From Maritalea mediterranea (GTDB lineage: Bacteria; Pseudomonadota; Alphaproteobacteria; Rhizobiales; Devosiaceae), in assembly GCF_021568695.1 (NCBI RefSeq), contig NZ_JAKGTI010000001.1:1240001-1304000 (forward strand): a stretch of DNA of 64,000 nucleotides, in the 5' to 3' direction. Shown piece after piece: positions 1,956 to 16,173 of the stretch. A model generated the notes under the pieces. The model was not told the origin of the DNA. It searched no databases and saw only the letters and a list, made by a program, of their open reading frames with translations. A program made the translations under genes and the position numbers. Each line of letters opens with the position of its first letter. The stretch's first letter is position 1.

Positions 1956-2909
1956 ATGTCAGATAATGCAGTTTTAAGCCTGCAAAGTTCAAACTTTGTG
2001 GCCAATCAAAATCCCCAAAATGAACAAATGGTGCTGGCACCGCGTCAGTCAGCATCGACGACTCTGTCAAGCCAGTTCTGGCCCGAACTCGGGCAATTGG
2101 ACAATGCATTTGATATTTCCCACAGCACCTTGTGGAGCTTTATGAATTTTGAGGGGCGGGCGGCCTATAACCCCGCTCTGCTAGACGATTTTCATGGGTG
2201 GCATCGCAATATTCGAGCGTTGAAAGAGGAAATGGGCGAGCACTTCAAATTTGTCGTGCTCGGCTCGCGACATCCGGATTTTTTCTGCTTGGGGGGCGAT
2301 CTGAACTATTTCTCCCAATGTATTGATAATCAGGATCGGGATGGGCTCTACGAATATGGTCGCTCCTGCATTGAGATTTTGCACAACAATTGGCGCAGTA
2401 TTGACAGCGAAGTTCTGACGGTGGGGCTGGTGCAAGGTGACGCATTGGGCGGCGGTTTCGAATCTTTGCTGTCGTTTGACTATATTTGCGCTGAAGAGGG
2501 CACAAAGTTCGGGTTCCCAGAGCAGATGTTCGGCCTTTTCCCTGGCATGGGGGCGCTAACCTTCCTTGGCCGATCACTTGGCTTTGCTAAAGCAGAGCAA
2601 CTGGTGCGCACTGGCCGCACCCTGACGGCTGAAGAGCTATACGAAATGGGTGTTGTTCATATTTTGGCTGAAAAAGGGCAGGGGCTGAGAGCTGTGCAAC
2701 GTTTCATTGCCAAAAATGAGCATAAGCACGCCGCCTTGTGCACCTACCGCAAGGCCGCCAAACGTGCCAACCCAATTCCGTTTGAGGAATTGGACGATGT
2801 TGTTTCCCTTTGGGCGGACGCCGGTATGCGGATTTCGGCCCGGGAACTGAAGGTGATGCATCGGCTAGTGGCAGCCCAATCCAAAAAAACATCGCCCGCT
2901 GCTGAGTAG
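1956..2909 (+). CDS. rpfF: DSF-family signal synthase, RpfF-like crotonase
   Basis: This 317-residue crotonase-fold protein is RpfF-like rather than a beta-oxidation hydratase. RpfF makes cis-2-unsaturated fatty-acid signals (DSF) by acyl-ACP dehydration and thioester cleavage. Visible marks are 'FFCLGGDL' (109-116), 'VQGDALGGGFES' (159-170) and 'GFPEQMFGLFPGMGA' (186-200). They place Glu169 and Glu189 20 residues apart, the same spacing as the catalytic pair Glu141/Glu161 of Xanthomonas RpfF. The C-terminus 'ELKVMHRLVAAQS' also matches the RpfF tail. The first ~45 residues are extra and Ser/Gln-rich. No good ribosome site precedes the ATG. The upstream 150 bp is strongly AT-rich. The gene converges on a GGDEF-EAL gene 34 bp away, sharing a terminator. 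Confidence 0.88.
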   Translation: MSDNAVLSLQSSNFVANQNPQNEQMVLAPRQSASTTLSSQFWPELGQLDNAFDISHSTLWSFMNFEGRAAYNPALLDDFHGWHRNIRALKEEMGEHFKFVVLGSRHPDFFCLGGDLNYFSQCIDNQDRDGLYEYGRSCIEILHNNWRSIDSEVLTVGLVQGDALGGGFESLLSFDYICAEEGTKFGFPEQMFGLFPGMGALTFLGRSLGFAKAEQLVRTGRTLTAEELYEMGVVHILAEKGQGLRAVQRFIAKNEHKHAALCTYRKAAKRANPIPFEELDDVVSLWADAGMRISARELKVMHRLVAAQSKKTSPAAE

Positions 2910-2926
2910 CGGGCGATGATGATTTT
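2891..2926 (+). terminator. Rho-independent terminator of rpfF homologue
   Basis: Perfect 10-bp arms ATCGCCCGCT (2891-2900) and AGCGGGCGAT (2908-2917) are followed by GATGATTTTT. The hairpin overlaps the last codons and the stop of rpfF. It lies between two convergent genes. Confidence 0.8.
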
Positions 2927-2943
2927 TAATTATACAGAGCGGT

Positions 2944-5295
2944 CTATTGCGCCGCGGCGTTTTCGCTCCGCGTCTTAACCTGCTTCAGGAAATCTGAATC
3001 AAATTTGCCTTTGCCGATTTCCAGCAGGCTGGTCGTATCTTCATTGTTGAGCGGTCGGCACAAATAAAAACCTTGTATCTCGCTTACGCCAGCTTCGCGC
3101 AAATAGTCCATTTGCTCTTGTGACTCAACGCACTCCGCCACAACTCGTATATTGAGCGCCTGCCCAATATGTGCCACCGCTGTAGCAACAGCTTTGGAGC
3201 TGGTGTTGCTCTCCAGATCGCGCACAAACGATCCGTCAATTTTGATCTTGTGATAGGGGAAAGTGCGCAACTGTGAGAGCGAAGAAAACCCGGTTCCAAA
3301 ATCGTCCAGTGAAATATTGACGCCAATGGCGCGGAACTGGCGCAAAATATCAAGTGTAGCCATTTCATCCTGAAAGAAGGCGGTTTCTGTGATCTCAAGC
3401 GACACACGTTCCGGCTTAACCTTGAAGCGCCGTAACTGTGATTTCAGATACTTCGGAAAATCGGTGTCTTGAAACTGAACGGCGCTAAAATTGATGGCGA
3501 TCGGCGTATCCGTTGGCCATTTGGAAGCGCATTTGATCGCCTCACTCAGAACCCAACGGCCAATGTCGATGATTTGTCCGGTCTGTTCGGCCACCTGAAT
3601 AAATACAGAAGGGGCAACGCGCCCCCGTTTTTCGTGGGTCCAGCGTATCAGTGTTTCAAACGCTGAGATTTCCAAGGTATTCGCATCCACAATGGGCTGG
3701 AAGGCCAAGCGGAACTGATTTTCTTCCAGCGCATATTTGATGTCGAGCTCCAAGGCGCGATCTTGCTGAGCTTTTTGATCCATCTTTTGCTCAAAAAACT
3801 CATATCGATTTCGCCCCATATTCTTCGCGGCATAAAGCGCCATGTCGGCCCGTTTGAGCAGCAGCGCCGCATCCTCACCATCCTTTGGAGAGATCGCAAT
3901 CCCGATGGAGGCGCCGATGCGCACATAGTGCGAGGCCACATTGAAGGGCTGCTTCAGTGCTTCTATGATCTGGCTCGACAAAATCTCTGGCGTCCGCGCA
4001 TGAGGCGTCAGTTTTTGCATCACCAAAAACTCGTCCCCGGCCATTCGGCCCACTTCGCATTCGTCAAGGCAAACATCGCAGATGCGCTTGGCCACTTGTT
4101 GCAACAAATCATCACCGACTGGATGACCGAGCGTGTCGTTCACATTTTTAAAGTGGTCCAGGTCAATAAAATAAACAGCGATCTCTTGATCAGAGTGGTT
4201 ATTTTTCAGCAAGTTGCGAAAACTGGTTTGCAGGGAGGTCCGGTTCATCAAGCCGGTCAACTGGTCAACCAATGCCAAGTGCCGAATTTGGGCTTCGGCT
4301 TCCTTTTGTTCTGTCACGTCGGCGAATACCAGCACCCTGTTGCCTGTGGAGGTCTGCCGTGATGAGACGTCGACATAGCGGCCGTCTTCCAACTGGATGG
4401 TGTGTTCAAAATTGGCCTTCGCCCGGTCCTTATCAAGATCGCCATCAAATACGAAATGATCGCGATCTGCAGGATGGATGAGCTCGAGCACTTCTTGGAA
4501 AGATTCGCCTTTATGCAGCCTTTCGGGTGGGCAACGCAAAATGTCACAAAGAATCGGGTTCCACACCAACAGCTTATTGTCGCGATCAAACATGCAAAGC
4601 CCATGCGACATGTTTTTAAGCGCGCCATCAAACAGATTGGCCTGCTGTTCGAATGAATCGGCAAGCTCTTTATTTTTTTCTCGTGTTTCCAATGCGTTGA
4701 TAATTGTTTTGCGCACGGCCAGGGTGATATCTGTCATGCCAAACATGAAGATGAGTAGCGCCGCGCCAACCACTTCGTAGAACAGGGTTTCATGCAGAAT
4801 CAGACCCAGCCCCATTGGGACAGATGCAAAGTAGAGCTGCCCGAGCGCCACCCAGGGGCGGCTGGCATTGCGGCCCGCGATGGAAGCAGCATAGGCTGCC
4901 GTCGTGGTGGTCAGCATCAAGTGGATCGCGCCATTATCAACACGCAACACTGCGAACAAAGTTACCATGCCCAAACAAAGCGAAAAGGCAGTACCACCAA
5001 TGGCATAGGCCCATTCCCATTGATTAACATTGTGAGGGGTTACCGGCTGCCCCGACCGCAAATAATAAACGCCCAGCGCAATTCGTCCGAGGGCAATCAG
5101 CACCACCGCATAGGCGAGGTTCACAACCAGTTGATCATTTGCAGTGAAGGACAATACGGCGGCAATAAACAGCCCAGCGACAGCCCCTGAAATTAACGAG
5201 GCAAAGGGATGAAACAGCCCATCAACAAGCTGCGCCCGAATGGTCGCTGAGAGCTCTTTTTCTGATCGGATGGTCTCTAATAGTCTTTTAAACAT
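2944..5295 (-). CDS. Membrane PAS-GGDEF-EAL cyclic-di-GMP turnover protein
   Basis: The 783-residue product has six or so hydrophobic segments (about 30-50, 55-80, 95-117, 123-140, 148-170, 173-195), a short linker helix, a PAS-like domain (~220-330), a GGDEF domain (~335-500) and an EAL domain (~520-770). The cyclase signature reads AGDEF (419-423), a variant often still active. I see no RxxD inhibitory site. The phosphodiesterase signature is ETL (547-549) in place of EAL; the other catalytic positions look intact: 'INFSAVQF' (601-608), 'EITE' (634-637), 'DDFGTG' (664-669), 'KIDG' (685-688), 'AECVE' (720-724) and Gln741. It is probably a bifunctional or PDE-dominant enzyme with a membrane sensor. 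It converges with the rpfF homologue. Its N-terminus is not the FI domain of RpfR. Confidence 0.93.
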   Translation of the reverse strand: MFKRLLETIRSEKELSATIRAQLVDGLFHPFASLISGAVAGLFIAAVLSFTANDQLVVNLAYAVVLIALGRIALGVYYLRSGQPVTPHNVNQWEWAYAIGGTAFSLCLGMVTLFAVLRVDNGAIHLMLTTTTAAYAASIAGRNASRPWVALGQLYFASVPMGLGLILHETLFYEVVGAALLIFMFGMTDITLAVRKTIINALETREKNKELADSFEQQANLFDGALKNMSHGLCMFDRDNKLLVWNPILCDILRCPPERLHKGESFQEVLELIHPADRDHFVFDGDLDKDRAKANFEHTIQLEDGRYVDVSSRQTSTGNRVLVFADVTEQKEAEAQIRHLALVDQLTGLMNRTSLQTSFRNLLKNNHSDQEIAVYFIDLDHFKNVNDTLGHPVGDDLLQQVAKRICDVCLDECEVGRMAGDEFLVMQKLTPHARTPEILSSQIIEALKQPFNVASHYVRIGASIGIAISPKDGEDAALLLKRADMALYAAKNMGRNRYEFFEQKMDQKAQQDRALELDIKYALEENQFRLAFQPIVDANTLEISAFETLIRWTHEKRGRVAPSVFIQVAEQTGQIIDIGRWVLSEAIKCASKWPTDTPIAINFSAVQFQDTDFPKYLKSQLRRFKVKPERVSLEITETAFFQDEMATLDILRQFRAIGVNISLDDFGTGFSSLSQLRTFPYHKIKIDGSFVRDLESNTSSKAVATAVAHIGQALNIRVVAECVESQEQMDYLREAGVSEIQGFYLCRPLNNEDTTSLLEIGKGKFDSDFLKQVKTRSENAAAQ

Positions 5296-14702: not shown

Positions 14703-14775
14703 AATTGTTAGCGTTTTAGCGAAAAATTTAACCTTGCCTGATAGCTTGAACGACAATCAAGTTTTCGAGGCAACC

Positions 14776-16173
14776 ATGAGTTCTGGGACCCCACAGCAGC
14801 AGATTCATCTGGCCGAATTATTGGCCGCGCTCAGCCATGCGCTCGACATTACCGAGGGGCAACCGGTGGGCCATTGCGTGCGCGCCTGTTGGACGGGGTT
14901 GCATGTGGGACAGCAAATGGGGCTCAAGTCGGGCCAATTGTCCGATCTGTATTACACGATTTTGCTCAAGGATTTAGGCTGTTCCAGCAATGCAGCGCGC
15001 ATCTGTGCCCATTATCTGGCCGACGATCTGACCTTTAAGAATGAGTTCAAAAAGGTCGATGGCAGCCTGCCGCAAGTGCTCAATTTTGTGATCACCCAGT
15101 CGGGCGTAAAAGCCAATATGGCCGATAAGTTCAGATCGATTATCACCACGCTGCGTCACGGTGGTCAGATCACCCGTGAACTGATCGAGACGCGCTGCCA
15201 GCGCGGCGCGGCCATCGCACGGCAAATGCATTTCAACGATGCGGTACAGCAGGGCATTTTGAGCCTAGATGAACATTGGGACGGCACGGGCCAGCCCGAC
15301 AAGTTGCAGGGGCTTGAAATTCCGCTCTACTCGCAGATTGCGCTGTTGGGACAAGTGGTGGACGTGTTCTTTATGAATGACGGACGCGACGAGGCCATCA
15401 AGGCGGTGCGCAGCCGGGCGGGCACCTGGTTCAACCCCAAAGTGGTGGATGCTTTTCTCGCGCTTGAAACTGATGAGGCCTATTGGCAGACGCTCGCCCG
15501 TAACGATCTCTCGGACATTATTTATAGATTTGAACCCGGCCAGAGCGCCCGGATTGCGGACGAAGACTATCTCGACGATATTGCGCAAGCATTCGCTCAA
15601 GTGGTGGACAGCAAAAGCCCGTTTACCGCAGGCCATTCCGAACGGGTGACCCTGTTTGCCGATTTGATCGCCGAACAAATGGGCTATGCGGAAGAAAAGC
15701 GTCGCTGGCTGCGCCGGGCAGCCCTCTTGCACGATATTGGCAAGCTGGGCGTATCCAACTCGGTTTTGGATAAACCAGGACGACTGAATGACGAAGAGTT
15801 TGCCGAAATTAAGAAACACCCCGTCTATTCGAAAGACATCTTGGCCAATATCCGCGCATTCGGCGATATTGCACCGGTGGCTGGCGGTCACCATGAACGA
15901 TTGGACGGTAAGGGCTATCCGTTTGGATTAAAGGGCGATGAAATAGATATGGACACGCGCATTGTCACCGTGGCCGATATTTTTGATGCGCTGACTGCCG
16001 ATCGACCTTACCGCGCAGCAATGCCCGTGCCCAAAGCGCTCAACATTATGCGTGAAATGGTGGACGACGCCATCGACCGCAATTGCTTTACCGCGCTGTG
16101 CGCCGCCATTGCCAAATTTGATCAATTGCCCACTGCGGACCGGCAAGCAGGTGAGTTGAAAGCGGTAAGCTAG
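14776..16173 (+). CDS. Tandem HD-GYP domain protein (c-di-GMP phosphodiesterase class II-like)
   Basis: The 465-residue product carries two HD-GYP-type regions. In the first (about 15-250) the HD motif has become 'LLKDLGCSSNA' and the HHExxDGxGYP motif reads 'DEHWDGTGQP', so its metal site looks lost. The second (about 285-450) is complete: 'HSERVTLFADLIA', 'LLHDIGKLGV', 'HPVYSKDIL', 'HHERLDGKGYPFGL', 'RIVTVADIFDALTADRPYR'. That domain should hydrolyse c-di-GMP. The start at 14776 has GAGG 6 nt upstream; an upstream TTG at 14734 lacks one. It is the last gene of the guaB run and ends just before a palindrome-rich gap. Confidence 0.9.
   Translation: MSSGTPQQQIHLAELLAALSHALDITEGQPVGHCVRACWTGLHVGQQMGLKSGQLSDLYYTILLKDLGCSSNAARICAHYLADDLTFKNEFKKVDGSLPQVLNFVITQSGVKANMADKFRSIITTLRHGGQITRELIETRCQRGAAIARQMHFNDAVQQGILSLDEHWDGTGQPDKLQGLEIPLYSQIALLGQVVDVFFMNDGRDEAIKAVRSRAGTWFNPKVVDAFLALETDEAYWQTLARNDLSDIIYRFEPGQSARIADEDYLDDIAQAFAQVVDSKSPFTAGHSERVTLFADLIAEQMGYAEEKRRWLRRAALLHDIGKLGVSNSVLDKPGRLNDEEFAEIKKHPVYSKDILANIRAFGDIAPVAGGHHERLDGKGYPFGLKGDEIDMDTRIVTVADIFDALTADRPYRAAMPVPKALNIMREMVDDAIDRNCFTALCAAIAKFDQLPTADRQAGELKAVS

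Follow-up and report, generated by a model that had tools for sequence, protein, structure and literature searches.

An rpfF homologue of Maritalea mediterranea paired with a membrane-embedded GGDEF-EAL protein, a predicted single-protein DSF receptor

The main routes by which bacteria perceive signals of the diffusible signal factor (DSF) type are given as two, RpfC/RpfG and RpfR (PMC4504480, PMC13220807), and accessory DSF sensor kinases are also named (PMC4504480). RpfC of Xanthomonas is a five-helix histidine kinase that feeds a phosphorelay to a separate regulator (PMC4504480). In Burkholderia and Cronobacter, rpfF lies convergent beside the gene of one GGDEF-EAL protein, RpfR, with cyclic di-GMP (c-di-GMP) output (PMC4504480, PMC6361424). 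Here, we describe a locus of Maritalea mediterranea, within a 64,000-nucleotide stretch of contig NZ_JAKGTI010000001.1 (the window), in which an rpfF homologue is convergent with the gene of a membrane-embedded GGDEF-EAL protein, their stop codons 34 bp apart. Our favoured reading, held with moderate confidence, is that the two genes form a self-contained DSF-type quorum-sensing circuit in which the signal is sensed at the membrane by one receptor-enzyme. No description of rpfF beside a membrane GGDEF-EAL protein was found in the open-licence literature searched.

The pair shares features with both described routes and differs from each. As in the RpfR systems, rpfF is convergent with the gene of a single GGDEF-EAL protein. 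However, RpfR is soluble and senses through FI and PAS domains, whereas the common input part here is a six-helix membrane domain, referred to below as S6, and the PAS domain that follows it in the Maritalea protein is of the PAS_7 type. An RpfR FI-PAS query matched nothing in the window genome at an E-value of 0.001, while three of three control genomes matched with E ≤6e-74, and the RpfF proteins of RpfR systems fall in a different clade of the RpfF tree from that of the window. As in the RpfF/RpfC/RpfG system and its alphaproteobacterial REC-GGDEF-EAL form, rpfF adjoins a predicted membrane sensor with c-di-GMP as the expected output. Unlike RpfC and its regulator, sensor and enzyme are combined in one protein, and Pfam detects no kinase or REC domain in either protein of the pair. 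No match to an RpfC-like query in the window genome reaches query residues 1–170 (one query, no positive control). Judged from sequence, the partner is a predicted new variant of DSF receptor.

The crotonase is a member of the RpfF (DSF synthase) family. Its Glu169 and Glu189 align with two glutamates of the RpfF structure 3m6m, which we take to be Glu141 and Glu161 of a Xanthomonas-type RpfF. In a search of the PDB, the top four matches score 149–159 bits and the fifth drops to 56 bits; the four carry the names RpfF, RpfF protein or crotonase/enoyl-CoA hydratase, two of them being named RpfF, and we take the last two to be of the RpfF type as well. A tree of 123 rows, built after thinning near-copies (≥82% identity, 180 to 118 rows) and excluding the long-branch rows G138 and G632, separates 116 RpfF-family proteins from seven ordinary crotonases of the window's own genome with an SH-aLRT support of 100, although the outgroup branches are long. 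Among the S6-paired rows of this tree, glutamate is found at position 169 in 48 of 49 and at position 189 in all 49. The protein passes the cut-off of the NCBIfam model NF006452 (322 bits), which is named only crotonase-family protein, and scores 184 bits on NF053515, below the 550-bit cut-off of the RpfF equivalog. However, a protein that matches PDB entries 6dgn (RpfF) and 5fus at 494–497 bits scores just 181 on the equivalog model, and two RpfFs from loci with RpfC and HD-GYP score 370 and 580. Since RpfF-type proteins score as low as 181 and 370, this cut-off marks a subgroup and not a function. DSF production by the window enzyme is presumed from its family.

AlphaFold models of the partner protein (mean pLDDT 90.9) and of S6 alone (pLDDT 94.3, pTM 0.88) show six membrane helices. 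S6 is followed by PAS_7, GGDEF and EAL domains. PAS_7 is matched by Pfam in only 26 of 61 paired partner proteins, and the partners in Sphingomonas and Sphingobium are S6-GGDEF-EAL proteins without it; S6 is therefore the shared input part. The diguanylate motif is GGDEF in 72 and AGDEF in 7 of 79 paired proteins. In the EAL domain, E547, N602, E634, D664, D665 and K685 are invariant among 61 proteins, and E721 and Q741 are conserved in at least 90%. We take these to be the known metal and catalytic residues of c-di-GMP phosphodiesterases, and their conservation predicts that the partner is an EAL-type phosphodiesterase. Pfam gives no match over the S6 of the window protein at E 0.1 and, across 61 whole partners, no recurrent family beyond the PAS, GGDEF and EAL types, with single weak matches somewhere along the protein such as AA_permease_2 (E 0.0047, one protein); of eight S6 sequences compared with NCBIfam, one gave a weak match to a transporter model (E 0.0041). 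The best match of an S6 profile among PDB sequences, CDP-archaeol synthase (E 0.027), was taken as chance. The original prediction had recognized, from the letters and open reading frames (ORFs) of the window, an RpfF-like glutamate spacing in the crotonase and, 34 bp away, a 783-residue neighbour with AGDEF and ETL motifs and a six-segment membrane domain; the structural alignment, the ORFs, Pfam and AlphaFold agree with it, the PDB ranking and the tree place the crotonase among RpfF proteins and not the beta-oxidation hydratases, and the architecture of the partner, in which a membrane domain is the shared input part, differs from RpfC/RpfG and RpfR, as had been proposed.

The pair recurs as neighbours in related genomes. 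Neither of two refuting outcomes named with the original prediction, a crotonase grouping with beta-oxidation hydratases and genes that part in related genomes, was observed. In a close sample, comprising the window genome and 40 relatives, nine of 41 genomes contain the crotonase, and eight of these have a full-length match to the partner (up to 25 candidates scored per genome) with at least 42% identity, always convergent, with stop-to-stop distances from an 8 bp overlap to a 36 bp gap. The ninth, G033, was classed as the RpfC type. In all six sampled genomes of the Maritalea genus group, the pair has the same surroundings. Two of the eight (G006 and G036; another genus, another family) have, within 20 kb, no match to anything encoded in window positions 1–24000 besides the pair and a frame antisense to it. 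Across the family, the distribution of the pair is uneven (7 of 25 genomes).

In an order sample of 397 genomes, 55 have rpfF. Seventeen of these loci adjoin an S6-GGDEF-EAL gene (8 convergent, 5 in tandem with S6 upstream and 4 in tandem with rpfF upstream), 29 have an RpfC-like kinase with an EAL protein, 2 an RpfC-like kinase with a REC-kinase, and 6 none of these, classes that were assigned here and below by rules on home-made domain models and not by curated annotation. The EAL gene at the remaining locus (G243) is cut by the contig end, and in G201, one of the six without a partner, rpfF and an S6 gene lie near different contig ends. A search of eight genomes for unlinked S6 genes found a strong one in G551, the known one in G201, weak matches of 52–54 bits in G271, G190 and G162, and nothing in G243, G138 or G236. 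Among the best 80 named genome matches, a set biased toward the query, 57 loci are of the S6 type (48 convergent, 9 divergent), distributed over Sphingomonadales (41), Hyphomicrobiales (11) and genomes without rank (5); the two loci from Maritalea and Devosia are assigned to the family Devosiaceae. The pairing is thus not a chance association. The distances of RpfF correlate with those of S6 (0.93) and of GGDEF-EAL (0.86) across 79 pairs, but these values are uncorrected for species relatedness and are not used as evidence.

Further afield, rpfF was found in 63 of 398 genomes of a phylum sample. Seven of these were already in the other samples, and the neighbourhoods of 40 of the other 56 were classed: 14 have an RpfC-like kinase without a recognized regulator nearby, 11 another GGDEF-EAL protein, 9 an RpfC-like kinase with HD-GYP, 1 an RpfC-like kinase with an EAL protein, and 5 none. 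The N-termini of three of the 11 other GGDEF-EAL proteins were inspected; two are RpfR-like and one is not. A class sample spread over families (337 genomes) has rpfF in 22 and S6 in 8 (E 1e-10); in three others the two genes occur separately (G491 as a strong match, G780 and G837 as weak ones).

Other arrangements were encountered during this survey. At the 29 order loci with an RpfC-like kinase, including L113 and L126, the accompanying protein is an EAL protein and not an HD-GYP RpfG; the examples read are REC-GGDEF-EAL proteins, and the one in L119 is REC-PAS-GGDEF-EAL. At L149, L150, L223 and L228, rpfF adjoins an RpfC-like kinase and a REC-containing histidine kinase, with no c-di-GMP enzyme. 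L153 and L154 have a second, shorter RpfF-like gene (233–234 aa) beyond the S6-GGDEF-EAL gene on the opposite strand, and in Sphingomonas sp. H160509 two loci combine rpfF with S6 (L164 and L167), the first with S6 and EAL in separate frames. In the phylum-sample family f81 (L242–L255, L275–L277), with genomes of ∼1.5–3 Mb, rpfF is often found with an RpfC-like kinase and no recognized response regulator nearby.

A common function for the pair is argued from its linkage in several gene orders, from its occupying the place held elsewhere by RpfC and a regulator, and from the shared S6 domain. Family membership, the recurring linkage, the domain composition, the conserved EAL residues and the predicted fold come from the analysis itself; signal production, the binding site and the direction of output are the parts of the circuit that we infer. 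RpfF would convert 3-hydroxyacyl-acyl carrier protein into a cis-2-unsaturated fatty acid, which, once free, would partition into the inner membrane and be bound by the S6 domain of the neighbouring protein. Its carboxylate would probably lie near Arg142 and Arg146 (and Arg71) on the cytoplasmic side. Binding could shift helix 6 and its extension (residues 171–227) and, in turn, alter the GGDEF-EAL output, most likely toward more phosphodiesterase activity and less c-di-GMP. RpfC plus RpfG would thereby be replaced by a single membrane protein. Adenylyl cyclases are reported to respond to fatty acids through their six-helix membrane domains (PMC11606603, PMC12505454), and CqsS is reported to be able to replace such a domain (PMC12414865). 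By analogy, fatty-acid sensing by S6 is plausible.

The nearest candidates for the predicted S6 fold are the membrane domains of ImcA and adenylyl cyclase 9 (AC9), with sequence identities of 5% and 6%, respectively. ImcA (PA1851) of Pseudomonas aeruginosa, a diguanylate cyclase with six helices, belongs with IsmP to a module that responds to iron, and no EAL domain is mentioned in the text consulted (PMC10904736). The adenylyl cyclases (AC9, Rv1625c) and CqsS have a different output enzyme; of these, AC9 was the one compared here. Within S6, an R-[N/D]-A-x-R motif is present in all 79 paired proteins. We compared 57 non-redundant paired S6 domains with all 14 unpaired ones from the 30 top-ranking S6 loci. 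At residue 144, every one of the 57 paired domains has alanine, and the 14 unpaired ones have tyrosine (9) or phenylalanine (5). Arg146 is present in 57 of 57 and 7 of 14, respectively, and Arg71 and Arg142 in every protein of both sets. On an S6 tree, the two sets lie on opposite sides of one branch, with a support of 91 that is not decisive. A more tentative proposal than the circuit itself is that S6 acts as a receptor for cis-2 fatty acids and represents a membrane-embedded domain of an undescribed kind. In sphingomonads and Hyphomicrobiales, a single polypeptide would then link the signal made by RpfF to a c-di-GMP enzyme. Residue 144 (Ala versus Tyr/Phe) would mark the DSF-sensing branch, and the helical bundle would be shared with the fatty-acid-sensing membrane domains of adenylyl cyclases.

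Several observations weigh against these proposals. None of the 40 additional rpfF loci classed from the phylum sample has an S6 partner, and in the class sample the pair is adjacent in only one of 22 rpfF genomes, the window's own. Together with the order sample, this distribution indicates that Hyphomicrobiales and sphingomonads are the main carriers of the S6 circuit. S6 occurs in 90 of 397 order genomes, of which only 22 also have rpfF. The S6 fold match is under the level (∼13) at which the tool advises caution for helical bundles, Foldseek with S6 alone gave no match at E < 0.001, and hhalign detected no similarity between S6 and the RpfC-like input domain, a weak test given the shallow alignments. 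The difference at residue 144 may reflect ancestry and not ligand, since the paired and unpaired groups also separate on the tree. Finally, the sensor in Maritalea could instead be PAS_7, by analogy with the PAS domain of RpfR.

An unlikely alternative is that the crotonase is an RpfF-family thioesterase or dehydratase of membrane lipid remodelling, with S6 sensing the lipid state, so that lipid stress and not a cell-cell signal sets c-di-GMP. The abundance of S6 in genomes without rpfF would fit such a role, as would the generic name of the NCBIfam model passed by the crotonase and the action of ordinary C18 fatty acids on a six-helix cyclase (PMC12505454). However, both the paired glutamates and the clade place the enzyme in the RpfF family, and 31 of the 38 other order rpfF loci have an RpfC-like kinase, a partner type familiar from DSF systems. 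It seems more improbable still that the pair is a DSF circuit whose signal is bound by PAS_7, S6 serving just as an anchor near a membrane-partitioned signal: BDSF (Burkholderia DSF) is sensed by the PAS domain of RpfR (PMC6361424) and the window protein has a PAS_7, but most of the 61 paired partners, those of Sphingomonas and Sphingobium included, have no such match. That the genes adjoin by inheritance alone, without a common function, would be compatible with the synteny of the whole neighbourhood within Maritalea, but is very improbable given that the pair persists in unrelated neighbourhoods in convergent, divergent and both tandem orders, and that the S6 label takes five changes on the RpfF tree, at least three of them forced by well-supported branches.

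The features of the locus are listed in Table 1. The inverted repeat between the convergent genes overlaps the rpfF stop codon and is a likely shared terminator, although the pattern scan returned 11 sites of this kind for the region where 5.1 would be expected. An ORF ∼10 kb away (14734–16173) encodes a C-terminal HD domain of the HD-GYP type with no Pfam REC match, and the original prediction had mentioned it alongside the pair. In G006 and G036, the 20 kb surrounding the pair contain no match to it; because the pair thus occurs without HD-GYP within 20 kb in two other genera, we place this gene outside the module and rejected it as a member of the circuit. It is retained in G004 of the Maritalea genus group (L023). 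The suggestion that rpfF was acquired was correct as to the AT-rich upstream region (25% GC at 1804–1955, compared to 53.7% for the window and 51.8% for rpfF itself). Recent acquisition is unsupported, since the six genus-group genomes share the neighbourhood and a low-GC stretch alone is a weak indication.

Table 1. Features of the rpfF/S6-GGDEF-EAL locus, in window coordinates
Feature	Position	Strand	Basis
rpfF homologue, 317 aa, DSF-synthase-family crotonase	1956..2909	+	PDB best matches of RpfF type; NCBIfam; tree
Predicted catalytic Glu169	2460..2462	+	alignment to 3m6m
Predicted catalytic Glu189	2520..2522	+	alignment to 3m6m
Inverted repeat with T runs on both flanks, likely shared terminator of the convergent genes	2890..2918	.	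pattern match, both strands
S6-PAS_7-GGDEF-EAL protein, 783 aa, predicted membrane c-di-GMP enzyme and DSF receptor	2944..5295	-	Pfam; AlphaFold; adjacency elsewhere
EAL domain (ETL), residues 518-748, presumed catalytic residues kept	3052..3744	-	Pfam
GGDEF domain, AGDEF motif, residues 341-497	3805..4275	-	Pfam
PAS_7 domain, residues 226-334	4294..4620	-	Pfam PF12860
S6 six-helix membrane input domain, residues 1-217	4645..5295	-	AlphaFold of S6 alone
R-N-A-S-R motif, residues 142-146, loop joining helices 4 and 5	4858..4872	-	motif counts

If the proposed circuit is correct, it would constitute a third, single-protein membrane route of DSF perception in Sphingomonas, Sphingobium, Pseudolabrys, Maritalea and others, and would bring into DSF signalling environmental groups on which the literature searched showed no such work. 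Because the presumed ligand-making enzyme is encoded by the next gene, the pair would also provide a bacterial test case for six-helix membrane domains as fatty-acid receptors.

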